Made by a program: the position numbers and the translations under genes. From Stutzerimonas stutzeri (lineage in GTDB: Bacteria > Pseudomonadota > Gammaproteobacteria > Pseudomonadales > Pseudomonadaceae), in the NCBI RefSeq assembly GCF_013522825.1, contig NZ_JAAMQZ010000018.1, forward strand, positions 1 through 64,000: DNA of 64,000 bases. The letters are read 5' to 3'. This document shows, piece by piece, positions 41,607 to 57,374 of the stretch (its first letter is position 1; every line of letters begins with the position of its first letter). The notes beneath the pieces were generated by a model. The model did no database searches. It had not been told where the DNA came from and worked only from the letters and a program-made list of their open reading frames with translations.

Positions 41607-41616
41607 TTGTATACAC
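41607..41616. promoter_or_regulatory. GntR-type operator, near match (TTGTATACAC)
   Basis: Nine of ten bases match TTGTATACAA, the palindrome found before several purine genes. It lies between the divergent TetR and binding-protein genes, 156 bases before the latter's ATG. Confidence 0.5.
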
Positions 41617-41771
41617 TTTATGTGGCGTTCTGATACTGTTTTTTGCGGCCCTGTCTGTCGGCGCGCCCGGTCAGTGGCGACTGCAGCCGATCAGGCCATG
41701 GCGGAGGCAATCGTGCTTTGTCTCGTCGTGCGGGCCTCACAACAAGAACAATGAGTCAACAAGGAGTCACC

Positions 41772-42590
41772 ATGAAGCACATGCTCGCCGCTGCAGCGCT
41801 CATGTTCGCTGCTCATGCGGTCGCCGAATCGACCTATGTCGTCGGCGTCGAAGACGCTCGATTCATGCCGCACTACAGCCTGGACGCCCAGGGCCAGTAT
41901 CAGGGCTTCGCGCGTGAACTGCTCGATGCCTTCGCCGAAGAAAGCGGCGTGCGGCTGATCTATCAGCCATTGCAGGTCGACGAACTACTGCCGGCGCTGC
42001 TCGACGGGAGTGTCGACTTCAAGTACCCGGACAACCCCTCCTGGTCCATCTCCAACAAGAGCGGCCATGGCGTGCATTACAGCCAGGCGGCGGTGGCCTA
42101 TGTCGACGGCGTCATGGTCGCGCCGCGGCGCGTGGGTCTGGGTGTCGAACAGCTGAAACGGCTGGCGGTGGTCGATGGCTGGACGCCCAAGGGTTACGAG
42201 GCACGGATCGATACCGATCAGGTGCTGCTCGTCGGCAGCAGCGACCTGCCGCGGATGATCCGCCAGGCGATGCTCAAGGACACCGATGGGGCCTACTACA
42301 ACGTCGTGGTAGCGATGCACTATCTGAACAACGTCCGTACCAAACCCGGTGCGCTGGTCTTCGACCCGAAGCTGCCGCACACCCGGGGTGCCTACCATCT
42401 CTCCAGCGTGCGGCATCCGGAGCTGATCCGGCGCTTCGACCGCTTTCTCGACGAACGTCGCGAAGACGTCGCCGAGCTCAAGGCCAGGCACCAGGTGGAG
42501 GTCAACCTCGACTCGGAATACATCGGCATGGAGCAATGGAAGGTCGACTTCCTGGAGCGGCAGAAGGCCAGGAATGCGGCGGGTGGCTGA
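41772..42590 (+). CDS. Orphan periplasmic solute-binding protein, family 3 type
   Basis: The 272-residue protein has a signal peptide (MKHMLAAAALMFAAHAVA, cut before EST) and a family 3 (PBPb/HisJ-like) ligand-binding fold (VGVEDARFMPHYSLDAQGQY, GFARELLDAFAEESGVRL). No ABC permease or ATPase gene is nearby, so it may feed a distant transporter or present a ligand to a receptor. AAGGAG lies six bases before the ATG at 41772. The TTGTATACAC site upstream suggests it belongs to the purine regulon; its ligand is unknown. Confidence 0.82.
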   Translation: MKHMLAAAALMFAAHAVAESTYVVGVEDARFMPHYSLDAQGQYQGFARELLDAFAEESGVRLIYQPLQVDELLPALLDGSVDFKYPDNPSWSISNKSGHGVHYSQAAVAYVDGVMVAPRRVGLGVEQLKRLAVVDGWTPKGYEARIDTDQVLLVGSSDLPRMIRQAMLKDTDGAYYNVVVAMHYLNNVRTKPGALVFDPKLPHTRGAYHLSSVRHPELIRRFDRFLDERREDVAELKARHQVEVNLDSEYIGMEQWKVDFLERQKARNAAGG

Positions 42591-42604
42591 TCGCCGAGCT
42601 TCGC

Positions 42605-43054
42605 TCAGCCGCGCCGAATCAGCCAGACGCCAGCGAAGATCAGCAATATGCCGCCGACCTTGCCAAGGCTGATCGACGCCTGGCGATAGCCGGCCCAGCC
42701 GTAATGATCGAGCAGCAGTGCCATCAGCAACTGCCCGGCCAGCAACAGCGCCATGAACAGCGAGGCGCCCACCCGCGGTGCGGCGAAGGCTGCCGTGGCG
42801 ATGAGGAAGACGCCGAGCAAGCCGCTGCTCCAGTGCCACCAGGTAATCCCGCGCAGGCCTTGCAGGGTCGGCAGATCACGCTGGGCCAGCACGATGACGA
42901 GCAGCGCCAGCGTGCCGACCGCAAAGGACACCAGCGCGGCATTCATCACGCTGGACAGCTGGCGCGCAACTTCGCCGTTCATCCCGGCTTGCAGCGGCAG
43001 CATCGCCCCGGCAATCAAGGGCAAGGCGAGCAACCACCAGGCAACCGTGGGCAT
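42605..43054 (-). CDS. DMT-superfamily membrane protein, DUF606/YdcZ type
   Basis: This 149-residue inner-membrane protein has five hydrophobic helices, typical of the DUF606 (YdcZ) group of small drug/metabolite transporters. The start MPTVAWWLLALPLIAGAMLPLQAGMN is characteristic, with conserved Gln and Asn in the first helix. Such proteins may work as pairs, but only one copy is here. A TTGTACACAA palindrome lies 100 bases upstream, which may place it under the same GntR control as the purine genes. Substrate unknown. Confidence 0.85.
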   Translation of the reverse strand: MPTVAWWLLALPLIAGAMLPLQAGMNGEVARQLSSVMNAALVSFAVGTLALLVIVLAQRDLPTLQGLRGITWWHWSSGLLGVFLIATAAFAAPRVGASLFMALLLAGQLLMALLLDHYGWAGYRQASISLGKVGGILLIFAGVWLIRRG

Positions 43055-43153
43055 GGAATTCCTCCGAGAGAGTGCTTTGGAAGTGAAAGAGGGGGCGGCA
43101 GTGGTGCAACCTGAGGTGGAAACGTCGGAACTGCGACCGCTGAATCGATAAAG

Positions 43154-43163
43154 TTGTACACAA
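43154..43163. promoter_or_regulatory. GntR-type operator (TTGTACACAA)
   Basis: This site fits TTGT-N2-ACAA with both half-sites perfect. It lies 100 bases before the DUF606 gene on the minus strand and about 270 before the chemoreceptor. Confidence 0.6.
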
Positions 43164-43327
43164 GATACTGACGATAATTGCCCGGAGCAATGACTATCTC
43201 AATGCCGGCGGCTACCTTCCTGCAAAGCTACCGCTTCAGCGAGATAGGCTTTCAGAGCGGATGAACCGGCGATCCGGGACCGCGCATGGAGTCGTTGCAT
43301 TATTCGTTTCGTTCGGATGACTGACAT

Positions 43328-43354
43328 TAAGGATCTGGCTGTCAGTGCCGATAA
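43328..43354 (+). promoter_or_regulatory. Sigma-28 (FliA) type promoter of the chemoreceptor gene
   Basis: TAAG at 43328-43331, then 15 bases, then GCCGATAA at 43347-43354. The FliA consensus is TAAA-N15-GCCGATAA, so the -10 element is perfect and the -35 core matches three of four bases. It faces the chemoreceptor gene, 70 bases before its ATG, and predicts expression with the flagellar and chemotaxis regulon. Confidence 0.75.
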
Positions 43355-43373
43355 CAATCAAGCGACGTTAATG

Positions 43374-43383
43374 TTGTATACAA
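43374..43383. promoter_or_regulatory. GntR-type operator (TTGTATACAA) before the chemoreceptor
   Basis: A perfect palindrome. It is 20 bases downstream of the FliA-type -10 element, so near +18 if transcription starts about seven bases after it. A bound repressor there would block elongation. Confidence 0.65.
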
Positions 43384-43423
43384 TCTAATGGATGCTAATA
43401 AAAACCAGAACGAGGACTACGCC

Positions 43424-45355
43424 ATGCGCTTCATGCAACGCAGTATCCAGTGGCAACTGATCGTCAGCATGGGCGCGGCCCTGTTGACCAGCATGCTGAT
43501 CGTCATTGTGGTGTATTCCTCGGCGGTCAATCGCCTGGCTGAGCGCTATCTCATCGGTGAAGCGCTACCAGCCAATATCACCGCGATCCGCAACGATATC
43601 GAGCGCACCCTGACGGAGCCGGTCACGGCTACCTCCGGTATCGCCACCAATACGCTGGTTCACGACTGGTTGCAGCATGGTGAGAGCGCCGCACAGGCGG
43701 CGGCGATGACCCGTTACCTGGAGGGTGTAAAAACGCAACAGGGCGCGCTGACGACCTCCATCGCTGTGCTCGGGAGCGGTCACTACTACTCGGAAGCCGG
43801 GCTGACCCGGACCCTGGATCGTAGCAATCCGGCCGAACGCTGGTTCTATAGTCTGATCGAGGGCAGTGCAGATCGTCGTGTCGATATCGACATCGACAAG
43901 GCCACGCGGCAGCTGACGCTGTTCATCAATCAGCGTATCAAGGTCGACGGCAAGGTGCTGGGGGTCGTTGGGTTGGGCTACAGCCTCGATCGCATGTCCA
44001 AGCTGATCAGCGGCTTTCGTTTCGGTGAGCGCGGCGAGGTCTACCTCGTCGGTGGCGATGGTCGGGTCAAGGTCCATTCCAGAAGCGATTACAATGACAG
44101 CGCCGATCTCGCTCAGCTCATGGGGCGTGATGCCGCGGATCGGCTGTTGGGCGGTGAACGGCAAACGGTCGAGTTCGAGCGCGACGGTGAGCATTTCCTG
44201 GCCATGGCGCAGCCGCTGGAAAGTCTTGGCTGGACGCTCGTCAGCGAGGTGCCGGAAGTGCAGATTTTCGGTGATGCACGGCGGACCATGTGGATTACCA
44301 GCCTGATCGGCACCTGCATCACGCTGTTCTTTCTCGCGCTGGTGGTGCTGCTGGCACGCGGGCTGGTCAAGCCGATTCGTCAGGTCACCAGTGCGCTGGT
44401 GGAGATCGGTGGCGGTGGCGGCGATCTGACGCGGCGTCTGGACGAGAGCCGGGCCGATGAACTGGGCGACCTTGCACGTGGTTTCAACCGCTTCATCGGC
44501 AGCCTGCGTGAGCTGATCGGCGATGTGCTGCGTACCAGCGAGCAATTGCGTAGCGCAGTGGGGCAGGTGTCGCACGTGGTCGACAATACGGCGGGGCGTG
44601 CCGGGCGCCAGCACGAGATGACCGACATGGTCGCCACGGCGGTGCATGAGATGGGTTTGACCGTGCAGGAAATCGCCCGCAACGCCAGCAACGCGGCGCA
44701 GGCCTCGCAAGGCGCCCGCAGCGAAGCCATGCAGGCGCGTACGGTTGTGGGTGAATCCATTGCACATATCGAGAGTATGTCCAGCGAGATCGGCCAGGCA
44801 GCGGATGCAGTGACCGACCTTGCCCGGCAGGTCGCGACCATCGACAAGGTGCTGGCGGTGATTCGAGGTATTTCCGAGCAGACCAACCTGCTGGCGCTCA
44901 ATGCCGCCATCGAAGCGGCCCGGGCTGGTGAAATGGGCCGTGGATTCGCTGTGGTCGCCGACGAGGTGCGCACCCTGGCCAGCCGGACCCAGGCCTCGAC
45001 CGATGAGATCCAACAGATGATTCAGGGCCTCAATAAAGGCGCCGATAACGCCGTCAGTTCGATGCACGCCAGCCAGGCGGCGACGGGCACTGGCGTGCAG
45101 GCCAGCCAGCGTACCGGGCAATCGCTGGCCACCATCACCGAGCAGGTCGAGGCGATCAGTGACATGAACACCCAGGTGGCGGCGGCGACCGAGGAGCAGA
45201 GCAGCGTAACCGAGGAAATCACTCAGAACGTTCAGGGTATCGCGGATCTGGCTCAGGCGACGGCAAGCGAGGTGCAAAGCTGTCTGGAGGATTGCCGCGC
45301 GCTCAGCCGCCTGGCCGATGATCTGACCCGGCAGATGGGTAGCTTCAAGCTCTAG
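43424..45355 (+). CDS. Methyl-accepting chemotaxis protein with a dCache-like sensor
   Basis: This 643-residue chemoreceptor has a first membrane helix (about 10-32), a periplasmic domain of about 255 residues resembling dCache ([43 protein letters not shown]), a second helix (about 288-312), HAMP, and a signalling domain whose hairpin tip contains [19 protein letters not shown]. It has no C-terminal CheR-binding pentapeptide. The ATG at 43424 (MRFMQRS) has GAGG nine bases upstream; 43388 is less likely. A FliA-type promoter and a TTGTATACAA operator precede it. Purine sensing, as for P. putida McpH, is inferred from location. Confidence 0.9.
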
Positions 45356-45623
45356 CGAGCCTGTGGGTCCTTGCTGGTGATCGGTGACGCTATTGTGGCC
45401 GGATCGCCAGCGAGCTGACTCTTGCAGCGGCGGCGCTGGTACGTGGCCGTAGGGGCGGGATTGTCCGAGACCTGGCGGGCTTCGGTGCATGTGATGCGTG
45501 GAGCGCAGCCTGCGTCGAGGCGGTGCCCGATACTGGAAGCAGTCTTTGCTTCACAGCTACAACCTGTCGGCTTGGTTGCAGGGAGGCTTCGCAAACGAAG
45601 CTCTGGCACGGGTGGCCGCAAAT
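45356..45623. other. Intergenic region after the chemoreceptor gene
   Basis: Together with the terminator and 3' flank up to 45688 this makes a 333-base gap. Several short open frames on both strands have no recognisable family and overlap each other. I see no gene here. Confidence 0.4.
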
Positions 45624-45649
45624 AAAAAAGGTGGCGCAAGCGCCACCTT
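45624..45649 (-). terminator. Rho-independent terminator of the Tsx-like porin gene
   Basis: On the minus strand AAGGTGGCGC, loop TT, GCGCCACC followed by TTTTTT. It starts 40 bases beyond the porin stop. Confidence 0.88.
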
Positions 45650-45688: not shown

Positions 45689-46480
45689 TTAAAAGTGCGC
45701 CTTGACGATCGCACTGAAGGTGTTCTGATCGGTCTTGAACGGCAGGGAGCCGTCTTCCAGGCCGTATTTGTCGGACCAGTAATCGTATTCGATACCCACG
45801 TAGAGCTTGCCCGGGGTCATGTCCAGCGCCTTGCCCAGGTCGTACTTGACCTGTGGGTTGATGTGCAGGTTCTTCGACACGAAATCACCCCGGCTCTTGG
45901 AGCCCGCATCGTTGACCACCCAGTCGATGTAACCGTCGAAGAGAATGTCGGATTTGCCCACCGGAATGGTAATCGCCCAGGTCGGCGTGACCTGCCACTG
46001 GCCGGAAGGCTTGCCGGTGCTGCCGTCCGGTTTGCGGTAATAGAAGTTAAAGGCCAGGCGATCGAAGCCGGGCGCATCCAGATCGAAGCCTGGGCCAAGA
46101 AGGTAGATCTGATTGCCACCCTCGCCGCGCTCATAGGTAGCCGCAACCAGCACATCCTTGACCGGACCGAACGACATGTCCGCCCCCGAAATCTTGCCGA
46201 GCGACAGGCGCGGGGCGAACTCGCCGTAATAGGTATGGCCTTCGCCGCCGGACAGGCCGTTGTACCACTTGTTATCGACAAACAGGAACATGTCGCCCCA
46301 GCTCCAGCCGCTGGCGTGCTCGAAAGTGATGGTCTGTTGGATGGCCCCGGCATCGACCTTGAAATCCTTGCCGTAAAGGTAGGTCAGGCTGTTGTTCTGC
46401 CAGTGCATTTCGGCGAAGGCCGGTGCGGCGAGCAGACTGCCGGCCAGGGCGAGGGAGAGCGGAGCGAGTTTGAAGTTCAT
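45689..46480 (-). CDS. Tsx-like nucleoside-specific outer-membrane channel
   Basis: This 263-residue predicted outer-membrane barrel of the Channel_Tsx family has a signal peptide (MNFKLAPLSLALAGSLLAAPAFA, cut before EMHW) and a C-terminal aromatic residue (SAIVKAHF). Family features include the start WQNNSLTYLYGKDFKVD and repeated alternating aromatic strands. Tsx proteins pass nucleosides, so this one may admit purine nucleosides, bases or urate. Two GntR-type sites lie 290-340 bases upstream. It has its own terminator and is separated from puuD by 484 bases. Confidence 0.82.
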   Translation of the reverse strand: MNFKLAPLSLALAGSLLAAPAFAEMHWQNNSLTYLYGKDFKVDAGAIQQTITFEHASGWSWGDMFLFVDNKWYNGLSGGEGHTYYGEFAPRLSLGKISGADMSFGPVKDVLVAATYERGEGGNQIYLLGPGFDLDAPGFDRLAFNFYYRKPDGSTGKPSGQWQVTPTWAITIPVGKSDILFDGYIDWVVNDAGSKSRGDFVSKNLHINPQVKYDLGKALDMTPGKLYVGIEYDYWSDKYGLEDGSLPFKTDQNTFSAIVKAHF

Positions 46481-46812
46481 CTGGATACCCTTGGTTTTTT
46501 ATTGTGGTTTGACGGTAATTTCAGCGCGCAGTCACATGCCGCGTTGAAAGGGGGCGGGATCAGGCTGATCGGACAATGGGCTCGTTCGAGGCGCAGACAT
46601 CGGCTCGCTGGAAGCCCGGTCTTGTTGTCGCTGATGACGTGGGAGCCATGAGACTCCTGAATTCGCTTGCGCACATGGTTCAGCCTGCCTGGTATTTATT
46701 GTTCGGTCATGGGCTTCAGGACTGCAGTCTGATCCGTCCGGATGTTGTCCGGGCGGTCAGCTATTTTGACTATAGCAATTGTAGACACATTGCAAAACAA
46801 ATAATTTTATTA
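46481..46812. other. Upstream region of the Tsx-like porin gene
   Basis: No gene is supported. The stretch 46740-46825 is strikingly AT-rich compared with its surroundings and carries a weak GntR-type site, TTGTAGACAC at 46779-46788 (eight of ten bases matching TTGTATACAA). It probably holds the porin promoter and a long leader. Confidence 0.45.
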
Positions 46813-46822
46813 TTGTGCACAA
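46813..46822. promoter_or_regulatory. GntR-type operator (TTGTGCACAA) upstream of the Tsx-like porin
   Basis: A perfect TTGT-N2-ACAA palindrome, identical to the site at 57365-57374 before gntR. It is 333 bases from the porin ATG, which is far, so a distant promoter and long leader would be needed. Confidence 0.55.
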
Positions 46823-46964: not shown

Positions 46965-48200
46965 TCAGTTGATCTGCGCCCCCTGTGCGATCCAGTTGGC
47001 CAGCAGGTCACGCTCTTCCTGGGTCATCTGGGTGATGTTGCCCAGCGGCATGATCTGACTGGCAATGGTCTGTGCATGGATCTTGGCGGCCATCTGCTGG
47101 ATCTGTTCGGGGGTATCGAACATCACCCCAGCCGGCGCTGCGCTGAACAGTGGGCTGGTGGGGGTTGCCGAATGGCAGACGGTGCAACGCTCTTCAATGA
47201 CGCTGCTGACCTTGTTGAACTCGTTGTGGTCTGTCGCGCCGCTCTTTTGCTCGCTGATGCTCGCCTGCTCCGGAGTGGTCGGTGCCAGGTTCTGCGGAAC
47301 GGGCTGGCGGTTCGGCGAGAGCACGAAGGCCAGGCACACCATGCCGACCGCTGCCGCTGGCAGTGCCCAGGCGAAGCGGTTGCTGTCGTGGCGAGTGTTG
47401 AAGTAGTGACGGACCAGTACCGACAGCGCACCGAGTGCCGCCAGGATCAGCCAGTTGTACTCACTGCCGTAGGTGCTCGGGAAGTGGTTGCTGATCATGA
47501 TGAACAGCACCGGCAGGGTGAAGTAGTTGTTGTGGCGCGAGCGCAGCAGGCCCTTGGCCGGCAGCAGCGGGTCTGGCGTGCGGTTCTGCTCGATGGCCGC
47601 CACCAGCGCGCGCTGGGCCGGCATGATGATGCGGAACACGTTGCCGACCATGATGGTGCCGATCAGTGCGCCGGTATGGATGTAGGCGGCGCGACCGCTG
47701 AAGATCTGCGAATAGCCCCAGCAGGCGGCGATCACCAGCACGAACAGGACCAGGCCGAGCAGCGCCGGCGTCTTGCCCAGTGGCGAGTCACAGAGCAGGT
47801 CGTAGATGAACCAGCCGACGATCAGCGAGCCGAAACCGATGGCCACTGCTGCGGCGGGAGAGAGGCCGCTGCCTGGCAGGACCAGGTAGAGACTGGGGTT
47901 GAGGTAGTAGACCACCATCAGCAGGGCGACGCCCGACAGCCAGGTGGTATAGGCCTCCCATTTGAACCAGTGCAGGTTCTCCGGCATCTGCGGCGGGGCC
48001 AGCTTGTACTTTTCCAGGTGGTAGATACCGCCGCCGTGAATCGCCCAGAGGTCGCCCGACAGGCCTTCTCGGGGGTTGGCGCGGTTGAGGTTGTTTTCCA
48101 GCCAGACGAAGTAGAACGAGGCACCGATCCAGGCGATGCCGACGATCATGTGAATCCAGCGAATACCCAGGTTCAGCCATTCGGTGAGATGTGCGTCCAC
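46965..48200 (-). CDS. puuD: Membrane-bound cytochrome c urate oxidase PuuD
   Basis: PuuD oxidises urate to 5-hydroxyisourate at the inner membrane. The 411-residue protein has about eight hydrophobic helices forming the DUF989/Urate_ox_N domain (RWIHMIVGIAWIGASFYFVWLE, HWFKWEAYTTWLSG) and a C-terminal cytochrome c domain with the haem motif CTVCH (about residue 343) and a probable axial Met in IMPLGN. Electrons would go to the respiratory chain rather than to O2 directly, unlike soluble uricase. It is last in the puuE, uraD, allA, puuD series, 80 bases after allA. Confidence 0.92.
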   Translation of the reverse strand: MDAHLTEWLNLGIRWIHMIVGIAWIGASFYFVWLENNLNRANPREGLSGDLWAIHGGGIYHLEKYKLAPPQMPENLHWFKWEAYTTWLSGVALLMVVYYLNPSLYLVLPGSGLSPAAAVAIGFGSLIVGWFIYDLLCDSPLGKTPALLGLVLFVLVIAACWGYSQIFSGRAAYIHTGALIGTIMVGNVFRIIMPAQRALVAAIEQNRTPDPLLPAKGLLRSRHNNYFTLPVLFIMISNHFPSTYGSEYNWLILAALGALSVLVRHYFNTRHDSNRFAWALPAAAVGMVCLAFVLSPNRQPVPQNLAPTTPEQASISEQKSGATDHNEFNKVSSVIEERCTVCHSATPTSPLFSAAPAGVMFDTPEQIQQMAAKIHAQTIASQIMPLGNITQMTQEERDLLANWIAQGAQIN

Positions 48201-48280: not shown

Positions 48281-48790
48281 TCACTCCGAGTCCCGGTGGG
48301 GGTCGAGGAACAGCTCATCCTCGCTGAAGAAATGCTCGTCGCAGTTGTTGCCAGAACCGCTGCGATCGACCACCAGGAATTCATCCCGCTTTTCGATCGT
48401 CAGCACCGGGTGGTGCCAGACGCCGCGGTGGTAGTTGACGCCCTGCCTGCCGTTGCTGCGGAAGGCACGGACATTACCCGGTACAGGTGCATCGCCAGCG
48501 GGCGCGACCACGACCAGAAAGGGGTTGCCGAGCAGCGGGATGAAAGCCTGGCTGCCCAGCGGATGACGTTCCAGCATCTGGATCACGCGCGGCATTTCCA
48601 GCATCTCGGCTGCGAAAATGCTGATGATCGCCTGGTCTTCAGGCTGCGCGGTCTCGACCGTCGCCAGCTTGTGGTAGCGGCGGGTGGAACCGTTGTTGAT
48701 CATGAAGAACTCGCTGCCTTCGGTCTCGATCACATCACCGAACGGGGCGAAGGCTTCCTTGGTCAACGGCTCTATCTTGAGTGTGCGCAT
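48281..48790 (-). CDS. allA: Ureidoglycolate lyase
   Basis: AllA splits ureidoglycolate into glyoxylate and urea. The 169-residue cupin-like protein begins MRTLKIEPLTKEAFAPFGDVIE and has family features FIPLLGNPFLVVVAP, YHRGVWHHPVLTI and DEFLVVDRSG. The ATG at 48790 fits the family; a long in-frame extension upstream is antisense-like noise over uraD. It lies 35 bases after uraD. In P. aeruginosa an allantoicase gene stands between these two, and there is no room for one here. Confidence 0.94.
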   Translation of the reverse strand: MRTLKIEPLTKEAFAPFGDVIETEGSEFFMINNGSTRRYHKLATVETAQPEDQAIISIFAAEMLEMPRVIQMLERHPLGSQAFIPLLGNPFLVVVAPAGDAPVPGNVRAFRSNGRQGVNYHRGVWHHPVLTIEKRDEFLVVDRSGSGNNCDEHFFSEDELFLDPHRDSE

Positions 48791-48825: not shown

Positions 48826-49341
48826 TTACATCGCCTGCAGGCGGAACAGGGCGATCTTGTTGATCTCGCTCACGGCACGGTCGAATTCCTGCTCGGGGGT
48901 GTTGTGCAGGCGCTCCTCGAACGCGGCGAGGATCTGGTGCCGATTGCTGCCCTTGACCGCCATGATGAAGATGAAGCCGAACCTGTCCTTGTAGGCTTCG
49001 TTGAGTTCGGTGAAGCGGGCGAACTCCTCGGCGGTGCATTCATGGATGCCGGCGCCGGCCTGTTCCGAGGTGCTGGAGGCGGTCAGCTCGCCGCGTACGG
49101 CGGCCTTGCCGGCGAGGTCCGGGTGGGCGTTGATCAGTGCCAGCTGGGTTTCGCGCGGGGCGTTCAGCAGAATCTCGGACATGCGCCGATGGAGCGTCTC
49201 GATGTCGTCGAGGCTTTCGTCGACGCCCTGGTCATAGGCCTGTTCGGCGACCCACGGCGAGTGCTCGTAGATGTCGGCGAAGGTGGCGACGAAGGCGTCG
49301 CGGTCGAGGCTGGACGGCGTGATCGTCTGGAAGCGGCTCAT
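48826..49341 (-). CDS. uraD: OHCU decarboxylase
   Basis: UraD decarboxylates 2-oxo-4-hydroxy-4-carboxy-5-ureidoimidazoline to S-allantoin. The 171-residue helical protein has the catalytic His in NAHPDLAG, the SEQAGAG segment and the C-terminal motif DRFGFIFIMAVKG. Its ATG overlaps the puuE stop by four bases (ATGA), showing translational coupling. It acts directly after the HIU hydrolase encoded divergently at 50622. Confidence 0.95.
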   Translation of the reverse strand: MSRFQTITPSSLDRDAFVATFADIYEHSPWVAEQAYDQGVDESLDDIETLHRRMSEILLNAPRETQLALINAHPDLAGKAAVRGELTASSTSEQAGAGIHECTAEEFARFTELNEAYKDRFGFIFIMAVKGSNRHQILAAFEERLHNTPEQEFDRAVSEINKIALFRLQAM

Positions 49342-50267
49342 TTCGCGCTCTCCTGGGTGAACGGGTGGGTGGCGTGCCAGTGGCGGGCGATATCGACGCG
49401 GCGGGCGAACCAGACCTGCTCATGGCTTTGTACGTATTCGATGAAGCGCTGCAGCGCGGCCATACGGGCGGGGCGGCCCAGCAGCCGGCAATGCATGCCG
49501 ATGGTGAGCATCTTCGGCGCTTCGGCGCCCTCGGCGTAGAGCACGTCGAAGGCGTCCTTGAGGTAGGTGTAGAAGTCGTCGCCGCTGTTGAAGCCCTGGA
49601 CCTGGGTGAAGCGCATATCGTTGGTGTCCAGGGTGTAGGGGATCACCAGGTGCGGCTGCTCCGGCGTGCTGGCCGGGTCCCAGTAGGGCAGGTCGTCGTC
49701 GTAGGTGTCGCAGTCGTAGAGGAAGCCACCTTCCTCGCGCACCAGCCGGCGCGTGTTCGGCCCGGTGCGGCCGGTGTACCAGCCCAGCGGGCGCTCGCCG
49801 GTGAGTTCGGTGAGGATGCGGATGGCCTCGAGCATGTGCTCGCGCTCCTGCTCCTCGTCCATGTACTGGTAGTCGATCCAGCGATAGCCGTGGCTGCAGA
49901 TCTCGTGGCCATCGGCGACCATCGCCTCGATCACCTGCGGATGGCGTTGTGCGGCCATCGCAACGGCGAAGATCGTCAGCGGGATGTCGTGCTTCTTGAA
50001 CAGCTTGAGCAGGCGCCAGACGCCGGCGCGGCTGCCATATTCGTAAAGCGATTCCATGCTCATGTGACGCACGCTCTGTAGCGGTTGTGCGGCCACCATC
50101 TCGGACAGAAAGGCTTCGGATTCCTTATCGCCGTGCAGTACGCAGCGCTCACCGCCTTCTTCGTAGTTCAGCACGAAAGACAGCGCGATGCGGGCGTTGC
50201 CAGGCCAGTGTGGATGGGGAGGGTTGCCGGCATAGCCGATGAGGTCACGAGGGTAGTCGGCGCTCAT
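49338..50267 (-). CDS. puuE: Cofactor-independent allantoinase PuuE
   Basis: PuuE hydrolyses allantoin to allantoate. The 309-residue protein belongs to the polysaccharide-deacetylase (NodB-like) fold: MSADYPRDLIGYAGNPPHPHWPGNARIALSFVLNYEEGGE at the start, IFAVAMAAQRHP, EICSHGYRWIDYQ, GWYTGRTGPNTRRL and TIGMHCRLLGRPARM. It is the first gene of the operon; a perfect TTGTATACAA palindrome lies 68 bases before its ATG. The unrelated dihydroorotase-type allantoinase (AllB) is not seen here. Confidence 0.95.
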   Translation of the reverse strand: MSADYPRDLIGYAGNPPHPHWPGNARIALSFVLNYEEGGERCVLHGDKESEAFLSEMVAAQPLQSVRHMSMESLYEYGSRAGVWRLLKLFKKHDIPLTIFAVAMAAQRHPQVIEAMVADGHEICSHGYRWIDYQYMDEEQEREHMLEAIRILTELTGERPLGWYTGRTGPNTRRLVREEGGFLYDCDTYDDDLPYWDPASTPEQPHLVIPYTLDTNDMRFTQVQGFNSGDDFYTYLKDAFDVLYAEGAEAPKMLTIGMHCRLLGRPARMAALQRFIEYVQSHEQVWFARRVDIARHWHATHPFTQESAK

Positions 50268-50334: not shown

Positions 50335-50344
50335 TTGTATACAA
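50335..50344. promoter_or_regulatory. GntR-type operator (TTGTATACAA) before puuE
   Basis: A perfect palindrome in the 354-base region between divergent puuE and hiuH, 68 bases before the puuE ATG, where it would overlap or follow the promoter. Confidence 0.68.
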
Positions 50345-50493: not shown

Positions 50494-50503
50494 CTGTGTA
50501 CAA
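50494..50503. promoter_or_regulatory. GntR-type operator, near match (CTGTGTACAA) before hiuH
   Basis: Eight of ten bases match TTGTATACAA, and the right half-site is perfect. It lies 119 bases before the hiuH ATG. The rest of the puuE-hiuH spacer shows no gene. Confidence 0.45.
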
Positions 50504-50621: not shown

Positions 50622-50975
50622 ATGGGACGTTTGACTACTCATGTGCTGGACGCCGCGCACGGCTGTCCGGGCAGCGACATCAAGATCGAACTTTATCGCG
50701 TCGAGGACGCCGGCCTGGAGCTGGTTGCCAGCCGGCAGACCAATGCCGACGGGCGCTGCGATGCGCCATTGCTGGAAGGCGACGAGTACCGCTCCGGCGT
50801 CTATCAGCTGCAATTCAGTGCTGGCGATTACTACCGCGCGCGCGGCGTGCAGCTGGCCGAGCCGGCCTTCCTCGACGTGGTGGTGCTGCGCTTCGGCATC
50901 AGCGCCGAGCAGGACCATTACCACGTGCCTCTGCTGATCTCTCCGTACAGCTACTCGACTTATCGCGGCAGCTGA
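50622..50975 (+). CDS. hiuH: 5-hydroxyisourate hydrolase (transthyretin-like)
   Basis: This 117-residue enzyme hydrolyses 5-hydroxyisourate, the PuuD product, to OHCU. The diagnostic C-terminal YRGS is present, as are the N-terminal RLTTHVLD with catalytic His, and YHVPLLISPYSYSTYRGS. The ATG at 50622 (MGRLTTHVLD) matches the family; 42 residues open upstream do not. There is no periplasmic signal peptide. It is divergent from puuE and monocistronic with its own terminator. Confidence 0.94.
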   Translation: MGRLTTHVLDAAHGCPGSDIKIELYRVEDAGLELVASRQTNADGRCDAPLLEGDEYRSGVYQLQFSAGDYYRARGVQLAEPAFLDVVVLRFGISAEQDHYHVPLLISPYSYSTYRGS

Positions 50976-51159: not shown

Positions 51160-51630
51160 CTATTCTGCGCCGGCTGCCTTATCGCCATGTGTACGGCGAG
51201 CCACGGCGCCGGTGCGTTTCACGCTGGCGCCAGGGGCGTCGTCCGGCTGCTGCAGCCCGTCCAGGATCGGGCAGTCCGGTCGCTCATCCCCCGCGCAGCA
51301 ACTGACCAGGGTTTTCAGCGTCTCCGCCATCTGTCGCATGTTATCCATGCGGCGCTCCAGTTCGGCGATATGCTCCTGGGCCAGGCGCTTGACGTCCGCG
51401 CTCTGACGCGACTTATCCTTCCACAGACCCAGCAGGTTGCCGATCTCGGCCACCGAGAAGCCGAGATCGCGGGCACGACGGATGAAGTGCAGACGGTGGA
51501 TGTCGGCCTGGGTGTAGGCGCGATAGCCCGAGTCGGTCCGGTCCGCCGGTGGCGTCAGGCCGATCTGCTCGTAGTAGCGGATCATCTTGGGTGAGACCCT
51601 GGATGCCTTGGATGCTTCACCGATGTTCAT
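51160..51630 (-). CDS. cueR: Copper-responsive MerR-family activator CueR
   Basis: CueR senses Cu(I) and activates copper-export promoters by DNA distortion. The 156-residue protein has the MerR helix-turn-helix (MNIGEASKASRVSPKMIRYYEQIGL), a long dimerisation helix and Cys112 and Cys120 in CCAGDERPDC, the same positions as in characterised CueR, with an extra Cys111. It extends about 20 residues beyond typical CueR with a basic tail. It lies 15 bases after copA and is probably co-transcribed. A MerR-type promoter precedes copA. Confidence 0.92.
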   Translation of the reverse strand: MNIGEASKASRVSPKMIRYYEQIGLTPPADRTDSGYRAYTQADIHRLHFIRRARDLGFSVAEIGNLLGLWKDKSRQSADVKRLAQEHIAELERRMDNMRQMAETLKTLVSCCAGDERPDCPILDGLQQPDDAPGASVKRTGAVARRTHGDKAAGAE

Positions 51631-51645
51631 GGCGATTCTCCTCGC

Positions 51646-54138
51646 TCAATGGGCGGTATCCGCTGCCAGCGGTGGCTGGAAACGCCGCAGCCGTAGCGCA
51701 TTGCCCAGGACGAACACACTGGACAGCGCCATCGCACCTGCCGCGAAGATGGGCGACAGCAGCAGTCCGTAGGCCGGGTATAGCACACCCGCGGCCAGTG
51801 GAATCAGCGCTGTGTTGTAGCCAAAGGCCCAGAACAGGTTCTGGCGGATGTTGCCGAGGGTGGCCTTGGACAGCGCGATGGCGTTGGGCACACCCTGCAG
51901 GTTGCCGGACATCAGCACCACGTCGGCGGATTCCACCGCCACGTCGGTGCCGGTGCCGATCGCCAGCCCCACGTCGGCTGCGGCCAGCGCCGGCGCGTCG
52001 TTGATGCCGTCGCCGACGAAGGCGATCTGGCCGTGAGCCGCTTTCAACCGGCGCACCGCTTCCACCTTGCCCTCGGGCAGCACTTCGGCCACGACCTCAT
52101 CGATGCCCAGTTGCCGGGCGATGGCCTGTGCCGTGTGCGCGTTGTCGCCGGTGATCATCGCCACCTTCAGGCCCAGCTGGTGCAGCGCGGCGATGGCGGC
52201 GGGGGTGCTGGGCTTGATCGGGTCGGCGACCGCGACGATGGCGGCCAGCCGGCCCTCGATGGCGGCATACAGCGGCGACTTGCCTTCGCCGCCCAGGCGT
52301 TTGGCCGTCCCGGCGAAGCCGCCAACGTCCAGGCCCAGTTCACGCATGAAGCGGTCAGCGCCGACTTCGACGCGCACGCCATCCACGTTGGCACGCACGC
52401 CCATGCCGGTGACCGACTCGAAACCGGTCATCAGCGGCAGCTCGATAGCCGTTTGCTCGGCAGCCTCGACGATGGCACGGGCGATCGGATGTTCCGAACG
52501 CGCTTCCACGGCGGCGACCTTGGCCAGCACTTGGTCGCGGTCGAAGCCTTCGGCGATCTCCAGGTCGGTCAGCACCGGGCGGCCTTCGGTCAGCGTGCCG
52601 GTCTTGTCCACGGCCACCACCCGAGCGTCCTTGAGCAGTTGCAGCGCCTCGCCCTTGCGGAACAGCACGCCCATTTCGGCGCCCCGGCCGGTGCCGACCA
52701 TGATCGAGGTCGGTGTCGCCAGCCCCATGGCGCAGGGGCAGGCGATGATGAGTACGGCTACCGCGTTGACCAGGGCAAAGGTCAGCGCTGGCGACGGTCC
52801 GAAGACCAGCCAGACCAGGAAGGTCAGCGCCGCCGCCAGCATGACCGCGGGCACGAACCACAGCGTCACCTTGTCCACCACGGCCTGGATCGGCAGCTTG
52901 GAGCCCTGGGCCTGTTCGACCAGCCGGATGATCTGCGCCAGCATGGTCTGCCCGCCCACGGCGGTGGCGCGCAGCGTCAGGGCGCCGTTCTGGTTGACGG
53001 TGCCGCCGACCAGCGTGCTGCCGGCGCGCTTCTCCACGGGAATCGGCTCGCCGGTGATCATCGACTCGTCGACGAAGCTGCCGCCCTCGGTCACTTCGCC
53101 ATCGACCGGCACCCGTTCGCCGGGGCGTACTTCAACGAGGTCGCCCAGGACTACCTCGGTGATCGGGATGTCCACGGTGCGGCCCTCGCGCACGACATGC
53201 GCCACCTTGGCCTGCAGCCCGACCAGGCGCTTGATGGCTTCGGAGGTGCGCCCCTTGGCGCGGGCCTCGAGGAAGCGCCCCAGCAGGATCAGCGCGACGA
53301 TGACAGCCGCCGCCTCGTAGTAGACGTTCACCGTACCGGCTGGCAGCAGGCCGGGAGCGAAGGTGGCGACCAGCGAATAGCCGAACGCGGCAGCGGTACC
53401 GACGGCGACCAGCGAGTTCATGTCCGGCGCCAGGCGTACCAGGGCGGGGAAGCCCTTCTGATAGAAACGCCGGCCGGGAATGACCAGTACCAACAGCGTC
53501 AGCGCGAACTGCAGATACCAGCTCTGCTGAAGGCCGATGGTCGCCATGACCCACTCGTGCATGCCGGGAATCATGTGCGAGCCCATTTCGAGCACGAACA
53601 CCGGCAGTGCCAGCAGCGTGGCCAGGATCAGGTCGCGCTTGAGTTCGACCCGTTCGGCGTCCTTCTTTTCCGCAGCCTGGTCGTCGGCCTGCGCGGCGCT
53701 ATCGACAGCGCGGGCCTCGTAGCCAACCTTGCCGACAGCGGCGAGCAGATCCTCCACGGCCACCACGCCACGCACCCTGGCCCGTTCGGTCGCCAGGTTC
53801 ACCGTGGCTTCCGCGACGCCGGGCACCGCCTTGAGTGCCCGCTCGACACGGCCCACGCAGGAGGCGCAGGTCATGCCCTCGATCGCCAGCTCGACGGTAT
53901 TGGCGGGCACGTCGTAGCCGACCTTTTCGACCGCCCGGACCAGCGCCATGCGATCGACGGGACCCGCCAGGCGAATGTCCGCTCGTTCGGTGGCCAGGTT
54001 GACGGATACACTGTCCACGCCTTCGATCCTGGCCAGGGCCGCTTCGACACGACCGACACAGCTGGCGCAGGTCATGCCTTCGATGGGCAGACTGATGGAT
54101 GTGGTGGCACGAACATCACTTGTGTTTGACGTGCTCAT
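51646..54138 (-). CDS. copA: Copper-exporting P1B-type ATPase CopA
   Basis: CopA pumps Cu(I) out of the cytoplasm. The 830-residue protein has two N-terminal metal-binding domains (each with GMTCASC), eight membrane helices, the ion-binding CPC motif in IACPCAMG, the phosphorylation motif DKTGTLTEG, the SEHP loop and [10 protein letters not shown]. The ATG at 54138 (MSTSNTSDV) fits; 57 upstream residues are spurious. It shares a divergent intergenic region with an ArsR-type gene. Expression should be induced by copper through the CueR-type promoter at 54174-54204. Confidence 0.95.
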
Positions 54139-54173
54139 GGTTCGTTCCCATTGGTTGTATTCGAGATGGCGAC

Positions 54174-54204
54174 AAGCTAGGCCTTGCCATCGTGGGAAGG
54201 TCAA
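54174..54204 (-). promoter_or_regulatory. CueR-type promoter of copA with 19-bp spacer
   Basis: On the minus strand the -35 element TTGACC (54204-54199) and -10 element TAGCTT (54179-54174) are separated by 19 bases, the unusually long spacer required for MerR-family activation. The spacer carries the dyad CCTTCCC...GGCAAGG, close to the CueR box CCTTGCC...GGCAAGG. It is 36 bases before the copA ATG. Confidence 0.85.
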
Positions 54205-54248
54205 GTACTGTGCGTTCTTTAACGGCGAAAGGGCAGGGCTTTCCAGAT

Positions 54249-54599
54249 ATGTCTTCCAACAAACGGGGTGACGCCCATGGTGAAAGTGTCGACCTGGCTT
54301 CCCTGTCACAGAATGATGTGACCATCCTTGCCGAGACCTTTCGCCTCCTGGGCGATCCCTCGCGCCTGAGGATCATGCTGCGCTGCATGCAGGGCTCCTC
54401 TCCGGTTGGCGACATCGCCGAGAGCCTGGATCTCTCGCAATCGCTGGTCAGTCACCATCTGCGACTGCTTCGCGGCGCCCGCCTGGTCAAGGGCGTGCGC
54501 CATGCCAAGCATATCTTCTACGAGGTCGACGACAGCCATGTGAGCCAGGTGCTGCTGGACATGGCCAGCCACATCGCCGAGGACCGTGGCGAAGAATAG
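54249..54599 (+). CDS. ArsR/SmtB-family metal sensor
   Basis: This 116-residue repressor has a winged helix (about 30-90, [28 protein letters not shown]). The last helix contains D-x-H-X10-H-x-x-E (DSH...HIAE), the alpha-5 zinc site of SmtB/CzrA-type sensors; the arsenic-type alpha-3 Cys pair is absent. The ATG at 54249 is favoured by family length. It is followed by a cation diffusion facilitator gene 105 bases on, with a SmtB-like operator between them, so it probably releases DNA when zinc (or cobalt) binds. Confidence 0.9.
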
Positions 54600-54642
54600 C
54601 CTGCAGCCAGTTCAAGAGGCGCAGGGTTGTTTTTTAAAAAAA

Positions 54643-54664
54643 CATATGAATATATGTTCATGTG
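54643..54664. promoter_or_regulatory. ArsR/SmtB-type operator before the CDF gene
   Basis: A 22-bp imperfect palindrome, CATATGAATA at one end and TGTTCATGTG at the other. The inner 16 bases pair in all but one mirrored position. The ATGAA...TTCAT arrangement is that of zinc-responsive SmtB-family operators. It is 41 bases before the CDF gene ATG. A second short inverted repeat, GGTTGC...GCAACC, follows at 54669-54687. Confidence 0.7.
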
Positions 54665-54704
54665 TTATGGTTGCTGCATATGCAACCGACTGTCCGAGGC
54701 TCAG

Positions 54705-55682
54705 ATGTCCCGCTCTCACTCGCATCATCATGGTCACCACGACCACACGCCGACCGTGACCAGCGCCAACGAGCGTAAGGTCCTCCTGTCCTTCTTCCTG
54801 ATCTTCACCTTCATGGTGGTGGAGGCGGTCGGCGGCGTGCTGTCCGGTTCGCTGGCACTGCTGGCCGACGCGGGCCACATGCTGACCGATGCGGCAGCGC
54901 TGGCCCTGGCCTATGCCGCCTTCCGCTTCGGTCGGCGCGCCGCTGACAGCAAGCGCACTTTCGGCTATCTGCGCTTCGAGGTCATTGCCGGTTTCCTGAA
55001 TGCCGTGACGCTGTTCGGCATCGTCGCTTGGATCGTCTATGAAGCGTGGCAGCGCCTGTCGGCACCCCCGGTGATCCTGGCCGGGCCGATGATGATCGTT
55101 GCCGTGCTCGGCTTGCTGGTGAACCTGCTGGTGCTGTGGATCATGACTCGCGGCGAGACCGACCACGTCAATGTGAAAGGCGCCATCCTGCACGTGATGG
55201 GTGATCTTCTGGGCTCGGTCGGTGCCATCGTCGCCGCGGCCGTCATCTACTTCACGGGCTGGGCGCCGATCGATCCCATCCTGTCGGTGGTCGTGGCGGT
55301 ACTGATCCTGCGCAGCGCCTGGAAACTGCTGGCCAAGTCGCTGCACATCCTGCTGGAAGGCGCACCCGAGGAGGCGTCGCCGGAAAAGGTGGCGCGTGGC
55401 CTGCTGGATTCCGTTGCAGGCCTGGCGGCTGTCAGCCATGTACATGTATGGCAACTCACTTCCGGGCGGACGATGGCCACGCTGCACGTACGCCCGCACC
55501 TGGACGAGGAAGCGAAGGCGGTGGTCAGGCTCGTCGAGCAGGCGCTACGGGAGCAGTTCGGCATCGAGCATGCCACCGTCGCGATCGACTGGAACTCGGA
55601 GGAGGGCGGGCCACATTGCAGCCTGCAACGGACTGCCGGGTGTCCCGGTCATGATCATTCGGCTGAAGGCCACAGGCATTGA
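54705..55682 (+). CDS. Cation diffusion facilitator, probable zinc exporter
   Basis: This 325-residue inner-membrane metal/proton antiporter of the CDF family is ZitB/DmeF-like. His-rich ends flank six membrane helices: SRSHSHHHGHHDH at the N-terminus and HDHSAEGHRH at the C-terminus. The transport site has His and Asp in DAGHMLTDA (helix 2) and HVMGDLLGS (helix 5), the HD-HD set usually linked with zinc. The ATG at 54705 fits the family. It follows the ArsR-type sensor gene and its putative operator. Cobalt or cadmium remain possible substrates. Confidence 0.9.
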   Translation: MSRSHSHHHGHHDHTPTVTSANERKVLLSFFLIFTFMVVEAVGGVLSGSLALLADAGHMLTDAAALALAYAAFRFGRRAADSKRTFGYLRFEVIAGFLNAVTLFGIVAWIVYEAWQRLSAPPVILAGPMMIVAVLGLLVNLLVLWIMTRGETDHVNVKGAILHVMGDLLGSVGAIVAAAVIYFTGWAPIDPILSVVVAVLILRSAWKLLAKSLHILLEGAPEEASPEKVARGLLDSVAGLAAVSHVHVWQLTSGRTMATLHVRPHLDEEAKAVVRLVEQALREQFGIEHATVAIDWNSEEGGPHCSLQRTAGCPGHDHSAEGHRH

Positions 55683-55700
55683 GCCTGTTTCCCTGTCCAA

Positions 55701-55740
55701 AAACGAAGCCCCCGACGCAAAGGCGTCGGGGGCTTCGTTT
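55701..55740. terminator. Bidirectional terminator between the CDF and purine-permease genes
   Basis: AACGAAGCCCCCGACGC pairs with GCGTCGGGGGCTTCGTT around a 4-base loop, a 17-bp stem, followed by T bases on the right and preceded by A bases on the left. It serves the two convergent genes. Confidence 0.9.
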
Positions 55741-55758
55741 GCCGGCTGCGCTTCCTGA

Positions 55759-57138
55759 TCAGAGGAAGGCGAACTTGGCGATGAACACGATGCACAGTAC
55801 GTAGAGGCTTACCGAAACCTTGCTGGCCTGGCCGGTCAGCAGCTTCAGCGTCGCGTAGGTCAGGAAGCCCAGGGCGATGCCGTTGGCGATGGAGAAGGTC
55901 AACGGCATCATCACCACGGTAACGATCGCCGGGATGGTGTCGGTGTGGTCCTTCCAGTCGATATGCGCCATGCCGCTCATCATCAGCATCGCGACGTAGA
56001 TCAACGCACCGGCGGTGGCGTAGGCGGGAATCATCCCGGCCAGCGGGGCGAAGAACATGGCGGCCAGGAACAGCAGACCGACGGTGATGGCGGTGAGCCC
56101 GGTGCGGCCACCGGCGGCCACGCCCGAGGCGCTCTCCACGTAGCTGGTGACCGGCGGGCAACCGACGAAGGCGCCGACGACACTGGAAGTACTGTCGGCC
56201 TTCAACGCGCGGGACAGGTTCTGGATCTTGCCATCCTCATCCACCAGGTTCGCCCGGTGCGCGACGCCCATCAGCGTGCCGGCGGTGTCGAACATGTTGA
56301 CGAACAGGAACGCCAGGATGACGCTGATCATCGCGATGTTGAAAGCCCCGGCAACGTCCATGGCCAGGAAGGTCGGCGCCAGGCTCGGCGGCATCGATAC
56401 CAGTCCGTTGTACTCGACCAGGCCCATGGCCAGGCCGACGCCGGTGACGGCGAGCATGCTGAACAGGATCGCACCGAACACGTTGCGATGACTGAGCACG
56501 GCGATCATCAGGAAACAGATTGCTGCCAGCAGGGCGTTGGGCTCGCTGAATGAGCCCATGGACAATAGTGTGGCAGGGTTGTCGACGACGATACCGGCGG
56601 TCTTCAGACCGATCAGCCCGAGGAACAGCCCGACCCCGGCGCCCATGGCGAAGCGCAGGCTCATTGGGATGCTGTTGAGCAGCCACTCGCGCAGCCGTGA
56701 CAGGCTCATGATCATGAACAGCACGCCCGAGAGGAACACCGCGCCCAGCGCGATTTCCCAGCTGTAGCCCATCTCGCCGACCACCGTGTAGGTGAAGAAG
56801 GCGTTCAGGCCCATGCCCGGCGCGAGGCCCACCGGCCAGTTCGCGTACAGACCCATGAGCATGCAGCCCAGCGCGGCCCCGACGCAGGTCGCGACGAAGG
56901 CTGCGCCGTGGTCGATACCGGCCTCGGCCATGATGTTGGGGTTGACGAAGATGATATAGGCCATGGTGACGAAGGTCGTCAGGCCGGCGAGCAGTTCCGT
57001 TTTGATGCTGGTGCGGTGTTCGCTGAGTTTGAAGAATCGATCGAGCAGCCCGGGTTTTTCCGGCTGCACGGCAAGGGTATGTGGTTCTTGCTTGGTGCTT
57101 TCCAAGGGGTATTCCTCATCGTTCTTGTTGTCGTTCAC
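55759..57138 (-). CDS. Purine permease of the NCS2 AzgA-like group
   Basis: This inner-membrane transporter of 459 residues resembles AdeP/GhxP, which import adenine, guanine or hypoxanthine with protons. About 12-14 hydrophobic helices, VGLAPGMGLNAFFTYTVVG, FVNMFDTAGTLMGVA and VTSYVESASGVAAGGRTGLTA are family signatures. Translation appears to start with GTG at 57138, although no good ribosome-binding site is seen. A perfect TTGTATACAA site lies 98 bases upstream, and the gntR gene is divergent. It corresponds to PA1519 by position. Confidence 0.92.
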   Translation of the reverse strand: MNDNKNDEEYPLESTKQEPHTLAVQPEKPGLLDRFFKLSEHRTSIKTELLAGLTTFVTMAYIIFVNPNIMAEAGIDHGAAFVATCVGAALGCMLMGLYANWPVGLAPGMGLNAFFTYTVVGEMGYSWEIALGAVFLSGVLFMIMSLSRLREWLLNSIPMSLRFAMGAGVGLFLGLIGLKTAGIVVDNPATLLSMGSFSEPNALLAAICFLMIAVLSHRNVFGAILFSMLAVTGVGLAMGLVEYNGLVSMPPSLAPTFLAMDVAGAFNIAMISVILAFLFVNMFDTAGTLMGVAHRANLVDEDGKIQNLSRALKADSTSSVVGAFVGCPPVTSYVESASGVAAGGRTGLTAITVGLLFLAAMFFAPLAGMIPAYATAGALIYVAMLMMSGMAHIDWKDHTDTIPAIVTVVMMPLTFSIANGIALGFLTYATLKLLTGQASKVSVSLYVLCIVFIAKFAFL

Positions 57139-57235
57139 CCAGAGTCGGGAAAACTCTCGAGGCAGGTGATGCTGAGGGGCTCATTCTGTCTCGTTTTTGA
57201 CTTCGAGGTCAGGAAGGCCTTGGGCGATTATGCTT

Positions 57236-57245
57236 TTGTATACAA
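57236..57245. promoter_or_regulatory. GntR-type operator (TTGTATACAA) before the purine permease
   Basis: A perfect palindrome in the 334-base region between the divergent permease and gntR genes, 98 bases before the permease start. Confidence 0.7.
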
Positions 57246-57364
57246 GAAAAGCAACCATGTTTTGTTCATACACTTTCTTTAACTGCGTCAATGCGACGCA
57301 TGACGTGCGCGGATCGAGCAATACCGGGAGCAAACGTGGCATTGATGGGGGGTTGATGTCTGGT

Positions 57365-57374
57365 TTGTGCACAA
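57365..57374. promoter_or_regulatory. GntR-type operator (TTGTGCACAA) before gntR
   Basis: A perfect TTGT-N2-ACAA palindrome 99 bases before the gntR ATG, suggesting autoregulation. The rest of the intergenic region (57139-57472) shows no gene. Confidence 0.65.

Follow-up and report, generated by a model that had tools for sequence, protein, structure and literature searches.

The 64,000-nucleotide stretch of Stutzerimonas stutzeri DNA analyzed here (contig NZ_JAAMQZ010000018.1; hereafter the window) carries purine catabolism genes separated by intergenic regions in which a ten-base palindrome, TTGTNNACAA, recurs. This locus raises the question of which protein recognizes the palindrome and which genes are united by it. 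An initial annotation had proposed that a GntR-type protein with an FCD domain, encoded from position 57473 onward, binds the sites and joins the nearby genes into a regulon. The proposal is supported by the finding that the motif accompanies the FCD-type gntR gene in each of 80 relatives, by conserved site positions at promoters, and by the presence of the same motif at gcl in Pseudomonas. We assign a probability of roughly 0.85 to the reading that the palindromes are operators through which this protein, a counterpart of the Pseudomonas aeruginosa repressor UgmR, represses the purine and chemotaxis genes described below.

The palindrome and its promoter positions

To establish the positions of the palindrome relative to genes, 80 relatives for which 5.3 to 20.8 kb around gntR is available were scanned, and exact sites located no more than 300 bp upstream of a gene were counted. 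The gntR promoter, which in the window carries TTGTGCACAA at 57365 to 57374, has an exact site in 80 of 80 loci, as might be expected for a putatively autoregulated gene. The same intergenic region includes the promoter of an NCS2-type purine permease (55759 to 57138, minus strand; Pfam Xan_ur_permease) with TTGTATACAA at 57236 to 57245, and an exact site is found there in 66 of 66 loci. The puuE operon is preceded by TTGTATACAA at 50335 to 50344 (exact site in 53 of 53 loci), and the divergent hiuH gene by CTGTGTACAA, which has one mismatch, at 50494 to 50503. An exact site precedes hiuH in all 55 loci, with the puuE-side site also counted whenever it was no more than 300 bp away. Because the four promoters occupy two divergent intergenic regions, the counts for gntR and the permease, like those for puuE and hiuH, are not independent.

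The puuE and hiuH promoters precede genes for the conversion of urate to ureidoglycolate. The minus-strand operon consists of the allantoinase gene puuE (49338 to 50267; TIGR03212, 540.6 bits), the OHCU decarboxylase gene uraD (48826 to 49341; Pfam OHCU_decarbox, 177.2 bits), the ureidoglycolate lyase gene allA (48281 to 48775; NF002949, 291.4 bits), and puuD of the urate oxidase type (46965 to 48200; Pfam Urate_ox_N, 433.7 bits), whereas hydroxyisourate hydrolase is encoded by hiuH on the plus strand (50622 to 50975; TIGR02962, 132 bits). Genes internal to operons have no exact site upstream (puuD 0/51, guaD 0/74, xdhC 0/25, xdhB 0/67, uraD 0/53, and allA 0/12), and one-mismatch matches at puuD, guaD, xdhC, xdhB, uraD, and allA number 2, 2, 1, 1, 1, and 0, respectively.

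The window contains six exact copies of TTGTNNACAA (three TTGTATACAA, two TTGTGCACAA, and one TTGTACACAA), each with the position and sequence given by the initial annotation. Dinucleotide shuffles yielded a mean of 0.33 copies and at most two, in agreement with the earlier estimate of about 0.3 chance sites per 64 kb, and the GC content of 62.6% is close to the 62% that had been assumed. With one mismatch allowed, 23 sites are present versus 9.15 expected. The entire genome (123 contigs, 4,998,235 bases) has 23 exact copies, and the binomial probability that six of these fall within 64 kb is 4e-7, a post hoc value given that the window was picked for its cluster. Judging from lists of open reading frames (ORFs), 11 of the 17 copies outside the window are within long gene-like ORFs, and six are actually or possibly intergenic (C29:80851, C50:23686, C56:4509, C58:40454, C67:16786, and C68:160377, given as contig and position).

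The two central nucleotides further distinguish the clustered sites. A purine-pyrimidine (RY) center is present in 6 of 6 window sites versus 2 of 17 copies elsewhere, such that TTGTRYACAA occurs eight times in the genome, six of them in the window, and the reversed pattern once. Among 48 other Stutzerimonas genomes the mean count is 6.9 versus 2.25 for the reversed control, and no excess is seen in 28 genomes from other families of the order (8.1 versus 7.7). A scan of the genome and its relatives had been suggested earlier as a way to learn whether the motif is equally common elsewhere; with 6 of 23 exact copies in the window and an RY excess in the genus, it is not. Exact sites pooled across relatives (224 unique contexts) give the consensus aTTGTRYACAAt, the core of which is fixed by the criterion for collecting sites and the center and flanks of which are not. 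Nearly all of the 224 are RY-centered, and positions beyond the flanking A/T hold little information. In the 80 loci of relatives (1.56 Mb), TTGT..ACAA occurs 252 times, compared with 1 to 28 times for each of eight other 8-base palindromes and 0 to 10 times for each of three alternative spacers. The ten-base palindrome very probably marks the seat of a purine-sensing repressor of the UgmR kind.

When the search was relaxed to one mismatch with A/T flanks, 28 places were found genome-wide versus 10 for the control. The cluster accounts for eight of these, seven of them inside the window and the eighth at allE (described below), and 20 are elsewhere. Sixteen of the 20 were inspected, with ORF starts judged by eye and a family scan made for one gene, and only that one (C57:18756) is notable; the remaining four (C29:80850, C49:20492, C50:23685, and C67:16785) are exact copies of TTGTNNACAA.

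Exact window sites score 19.0 to 25.2. Of three near matches that had been proposed, those at 41607 (18.7) and 50494 (18.1) are matched in relatives by sites with one mismatch or none and were retained, whereas the match at 46779 (9.1) has no counterpart scoring at least 11 in seven mapped relatives and was dropped. All nine positions are intergenic according to gene calls, as originally described, although some are overlapped by purely mechanical ORFs. A further match in the window, TTGGTTACAA at 20834 (score 14.0), lies between unrelated ORFs and was not counted as an operator. Outside the window, TTGTATACAA at C58:40454 (score 15.4) is located 17 bp upstream of a putative MATE transporter gene; we take the neighbors of this site to be MATE and pdxB-like genes from their sequences.

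The GntR/FCD regulator and the glyoxylate carboligase locus gcl

The regulator gene (57473 to 58228, plus strand) encodes a 251-amino-acid protein with Pfam GntR (63.4 bits) and FCD (82.6 bits) domains, both above cut-off, and the products of its closest named relatives, from Stutzerimonas (Pseudomonas) stutzeri strains, are 96% identical. In the window and in relatives, the gene is flanked by the purine permease on one side and by guaD-xdhC-xdhB on the other. Helix-turn-helix residues S57 to L68 are identical in 79 to 80 of 80 orthologues, and only one of them departs from the recognition region SRTIIRRALSRL, the arginines of which are identical in 80 of 80. Residues S145, H149, H192, H213, and H214 are likewise identical in 80 of 80. 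Positions 145 to 149 of the FCD domain read S-G-E-F-H; in two solved, aligned FCD relatives, an Asp lies close to the equivalent His. The pocket for metal or ligand may therefore be unlike that of typical FCD proteins.

The protein is probably the Stutzerimonas counterpart of UgmR rather than a new regulator. The source for UgmR assigns it to the GntR family; we presume that it also carries an FCD domain, and we likewise assume the P. aeruginosa gene order PA1521 to PA1524. UgmR is PA1520, described as repressing genes of purine and glyoxylate metabolism, with gcl and PA1513 to PA1518 as named targets (PMC12694930), and as being relieved by uric acid but not by allantoin (PMC12694930, citing Xu et al. 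2022 Environ Microbiol 24:3242). The two systems are alike in the GntR family of the regulator, in their purine or allantoin targets, and in the neighboring permease, which by locus number is PA1519 in P. aeruginosa (PMC12694930). The permease at 55759 corresponds to PA1519 by position, and growth data reported for PA1519 support guanine and hypoxanthine uptake (PMC11633122). The systems differ in that the Stutzerimonas sites are found at the chemoreceptor, ydcZ, tetR/binding-protein, tsx, and allE genes, and none is found at gcl. Boxes of the form TKGT/ACMA with a 2-nt spacer, as observed here, are described for HpxS and other FadR-subfamily regulators (Suvorova 2015, PMC4494728), where the likeness to HpxS is one of motif description and HpxS appears as a single mention in a list.

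The gcl promoter ties the motif to UgmR from outside the cluster. We surveyed 25 full-length gcl genes from 26 genomes represented by named Pseudomonadaceae loci (the partial L311 being left out; L286 is Stutzerimonas), and 20 of the 25 have an exact TTGTATACAA at -35 to -37 and, at -153 to -186, another copy with one mismatch or none. No site precedes gcl in the remaining five, from Stutzerimonas kunmingensis 7850S, P. borbori, P. tumuqii, Pseudomonas sp. MMS21-TM103, and P. composti. Because gcl is a reported UgmR target, the presence of the motif there in Pseudomonas links the motif to UgmR independently of the cluster. Unlike in the published regulon, none of 29 Stutzerimonas gcl promoters (from 30 rows, L223 at a contig edge being excluded) has a site scoring at least 7. 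In the window, gcl occupies 30740 to 32521 and faces a divergent LysR gene in place of a site (region 30740 to 33546); a candidate operator for this gene was rejected, the best score between 32500 and 32800 being -5.5. Thus, the regulator appears to have been retained in Stutzerimonas while gcl lies beyond its reach, and with the puuE operator present in 53 of 53 loci, the Stutzerimonas regulon seems to be a variant of that in P. aeruginosa rather than the same regulon. The gcl genes of P. borbori, P. tumuqii, and MMS21-TM103, also without a site, are 88 to 89% identical to that in the window; the other 21 full-length genes are 78 to 81% identical, and all but that of P. composti carry the operator.

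Several genomes bear on the pairing of regulator and motif. Two that lack UgmR, G008 and G009, have 0 and 1 TTGTRYACAA sites. We rejected their use as a natural UgmR deletion: gcl and a close mcp gene are absent too, and since the targets are missing as well, these genomes cannot separate the regulator from its genes. In another genome the gntR orthologue is in two pieces with an internal stop (G044:C1:2305140-2305861), and nine TTGTRYACAA sites are retained. The Stutzerimonas genome G014 has a UgmR orthologue 89% identical to that in the window, five TTGTRYACAA sites, and no true gcl match.

The chemoreceptor promoter

The reach of the palindrome seems to extend beyond purine-degrading enzymes to a receptor for swimming toward purines. 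The gene at 43424 to 45355 (plus strand; a further in-frame ATG is at 43388) encodes an McpH-type purine chemoreceptor with dCache_1, HAMP, and MCP signal domains by domain scan, and its best PDB match is McpH (8bmv, 256 bits). The McpH purine motif comprises Y121, R129, W140, F167, and a residue at 169 that is D in McpH itself and more commonly N among homologues, YRWFN being a listed variant (PMC11245519). This variant is found in 29 of 30 receptor rows, including the window protein, and L133 has HRWFD. The D169N version of McpH bound adenine 80-fold more weakly (PMC11245519). The window receptor thus shares the purine motif of McpH from P. putida (dCache_1PU) with N for D at position 169, and purine binding is predicted from this likeness.

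The putative operator at this promoter, TTGTATACAA at 43374 to 43383, begins 50 bp upstream of 43424. Promoters were read for 29 of the 30 Stutzerimonas rows (the start is not covered in L133), and 19 of the 29, including that in the window, carry the motif with no more than one mismatch at -38 to -61. When 25 of the 29 regions (L129 to L132 left out; mean column identity 51%) were aligned, 13 columns proved invariant. Among them are the operator-core G, T, and C, and most of the others correspond to the start codon and to two boxes resembling those of a sigma-28 promoter, where the invariant or nearly invariant columns read TNAAG and GCCGATA. In the window, these boxes form TTAAG-N15-GCCGATA at 43327 to 43353 (plus strand), the only match to T[ACT]AAG-N13-16-GCCGATA, and the operator is 20 bp downstream of GCCGATA. 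The FliA consensus is TAAAGTTT-N11-GCCGATAA (PMC7286023) and is identical in Salmonella (PMC4866697); the mcp boxes match it in spacing and in part in sequence. Allowing one mismatch per box, the pair is present in 26 of 29 Stutzerimonas receptor genes, compared with 3.1% of shuffled regions. These values are based on the best match in 200 bp, and L128 and L129, which were scored at the wrong place and have similar boxes nearer the gene, are counted as misses.

With this arrangement, the operator would lie just past the transcription start, and transcription of the receptor gene seems to depend on the flagellar sigma factor while being held down by the purine repressor. Close receptors of other Pseudomonadaceae are encoded in 15 of 26 genomes. 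Among these 15 genes, six have an exact site, four have a site with one mismatch, and five have only the two-mismatch GTGTATACAC; those five, along with L330, are of the YRWFD type. In P. aeruginosa, purines are sensed by PctP, an unrelated receptor with a 4HB domain (PMC10653921), and for this reason a chemoreceptor link may have been invisible in that species. Neither a link between UgmR and a chemoreceptor nor a Stutzerimonas purine regulon is stated in the titles or abstract openings among the matches listed. What appears to be new is the reach of the regulon to purine chemotaxis through a sigma-28-like promoter.

Additional putative targets, rival explanations, and the proposed circuit

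Next to the receptor gene is ydcZ (42605 to 43054, minus strand), which encodes a DMT_YdcZ (DUF606) membrane protein by domain scan and has TTGTACACAA at 43154 to 43163. A site within one mismatch precedes all five ydcZ copies located beside mcp, compared with 1 of 25 elsewhere (Fisher 4e-5). A sigma-70-like scan of 43050 to 43430 gave two minus-strand matches versus 0.2 expected, one of which ends at 43174, just upstream of the operator. Farther along, a divergent promoter with TTGTATACAC (one mismatch) at 41607 to 41616 separates a RutR-like TetR regulator gene (40875 to 41486, minus strand; Pfam TetR_C_3, with a RutR model score of 170 bits, below the cut-off of 368) from a gene for a solute-binding-like protein (41772 to 42590, plus strand; SBP_bac_3 by domain scan). 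Among 25 distinct regions upstream of tetR, 19 have a site within one mismatch, and in six of these the sites are in tandem, 22 to 23 bp apart.

The exact TTGTGCACAA at 46813 to 46822, between puuD and a Tsx-like outer-membrane channel gene (45689 to 46480, minus strand; Pfam Channel_Tsx, 49.3 bits), had been attributed to the porin. The palindrome is indeed exact in 8 of 8 mapped clusters (the window plus seven relatives), but it probably represents the ancestral promoter of an NCS2 permease gene and tsx. In L351 to L353, the site precedes ncs2b, encoding an NCS2 protein of the xanthine-permease family, with tsx next in line. The window and L346 to L349 lack ncs2b at this place, and the operator persists there approximately 330 to 440 bp from tsx. 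That the site fronts ncs2b-tsx in three clusters suggests that the tsx site was inherited from a lost permease gene. Some relatives have a different NCS2 permease on the puuD side of the site.

Although the six window sites are confined to the 41- to 58-kb interval as first described, the set is not entirely local. Beyond the window, allE, encoding (S)-ureidoglycine aminohydrolase (C33:68085-68921, 4 kb past the window end; 552.6 bits), has sites at C33:69027 and 69059, 5 kb past the window. Two sites 32 to 33 bp apart, each within one mismatch, are found in 11 of 11 orthologues, including this one, and allE with its paired operators would thus be a new member of the regulon outside the window. 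A PbuX-type nucleobase (xanthine) permease gene (L354 1558-3173, G000:C57; 497.7 bits) has ATGTATACAA 77 bp upstream (C57:18756) and is perhaps an unlinked member, as a candidate. Between hiuH and the permease, positions 51160 to 55682 are occupied by a metal-handling block (a MerR-type regulator, a copper-type ATPase, an ArsR-family regulator, and a cation-efflux protein), which among seven mapped relatives is there only in G023 (L349/L350) at the blast threshold used.

Several observations weigh against assigning all of these genes to UgmR. A proximal site within one mismatch is absent from 10 of 29 Stutzerimonas mcp promoters, P. putida-like receptor genes retain just the two-mismatch site (5 of 15), and just 5 of the 15 receptor genes from other Pseudomonadaceae show a clear sigma-28-like pair. 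Six of the 25 regions upstream of tetR are without a site, and an exact site lies within 450 bp of tsx in only 4 of 21 regions (row L129 excluded). The scan found no sigma-70-like promoter around the puuE/hiuH or permease/gntR sites. Orthology with UgmR draws on gene order and on the gcl sites; the missing gcl operator in Stutzerimonas and the confounded UgmR-free genomes belong on the same side of the balance.

An arrangement in which UgmR controls puuE, hiuH, the permease, gntR, and allE while the RutR-like TetR protein encoded at 40875, or both proteins, controls tetR, ydcZ, mcp, and tsx would account for the presence of tetR near mcp in many Stutzerimonas clusters and for the site conserved at its divergent promoter in 19 of 25 regions. 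In addition, others have suggested that the RutR-like PA1504 may regulate the allantoin-inducible gcl cluster of P. aeruginosa (PMC12694930). We nevertheless regard this division as unlikely. Sites from both halves, when pooled, fit one pattern, and tetR is absent from the flanks of about 1.5 kb around the 15 receptor genes from other Pseudomonadaceae (as are ydcZ, tsx, and every queried purine gene), yet 10 of these genes still have a site within one mismatch. Moreover, the operator of Escherichia coli RutR differs in sequence.

It is still less plausible that the sites belong to another FCD-type GntR protein, such as that encoded on contig 68, which has GntR and FCD domains, is 31% identical, and has TTGTTGACAA approximately 65 to 90 bp upstream of its own coding region (C68:160377; L021 3378). 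Motifs within the FadR subfamily do resemble each other (PMC4494728). However, the contig-68 site is TG-centered, whereas RY centers are found in all six window sites and, with few exceptions, in the 224 pooled sites. Sites also accompany gntR in 80 of 80 loci. The neighbor of the contig-68 gene, which we take to be a methylisocitrate lyase gene, also points to another pathway. Finally, the sites are situated in AT-rich intergenic stretches, the genome has 17 further copies, and genomes of other families have no excess of the motif, all of which might be expected if the cluster reflected chance or base composition. This explanation is scarcely credible given the shuffles, the control palindromes, the RY versus reversed counts (8 versus 1, and 6.9 versus 2.25), and the fixed promoter positions in 80 of 80 loci.

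On the preferred reading, in which the palindromes are UgmR operators, dimeric UgmR would repress its own gene, the permease gene, puuE-uraD-allA-puuD, and hiuH, as well as mcp, ydcZ, the tetR/binding-protein pair, tsx, and allE. Imported purines would be converted to urate by guanine deaminase and xanthine dehydrogenase, and urate would release UgmR, thereby derepressing the genes for the path from urate to ureidoglycolate, the importer, and the receptor. Repression and the uric acid ligand probably apply here by analogy with the reports from P. aeruginosa. The lack of exact operators at guaD and xdhC/xdhB suggests that these genes could stay on to make the first urate. Site pairs (two sites per divergent region, 129 to 220 bp apart in the window; tandem spacings of 22 and 32 bp in relatives) may allow cooperative binding or looping. 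At mcp, a repressor bound 20 bp past the sigma-28-like promoter would block transcription, and with the operator just past a flagellar promoter, the receptor might be made only in motile cells that hold urate.

The core of this system is already known, and the additions made here are its predicted reach to chemotaxis and to allE and the absence of gcl. We consider it reasonably probable that, wherever Pseudomonadaceae have an McpH-type receptor, a single urate-responsive repressor sets both purine breakdown and receptor level, that Stutzerimonas combines this repressor with sigma-28 in an AND gate for motility and available substrate, and that the edges of the regulon turn over rapidly. Under the same reading, gcl is not part of the regulon in Stutzerimonas, allE, ydcZ, and the tetR/binding-protein pair have operators there, and the tsx operator has outlived ncs2b. 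If so, a repressor described in one species would become the center of a genus-wide regulon with a precise operator, catabolic control of purine chemotaxis through a sigma-28-like promoter would be predicted, and the locus would offer a clear case of regulon rewiring.

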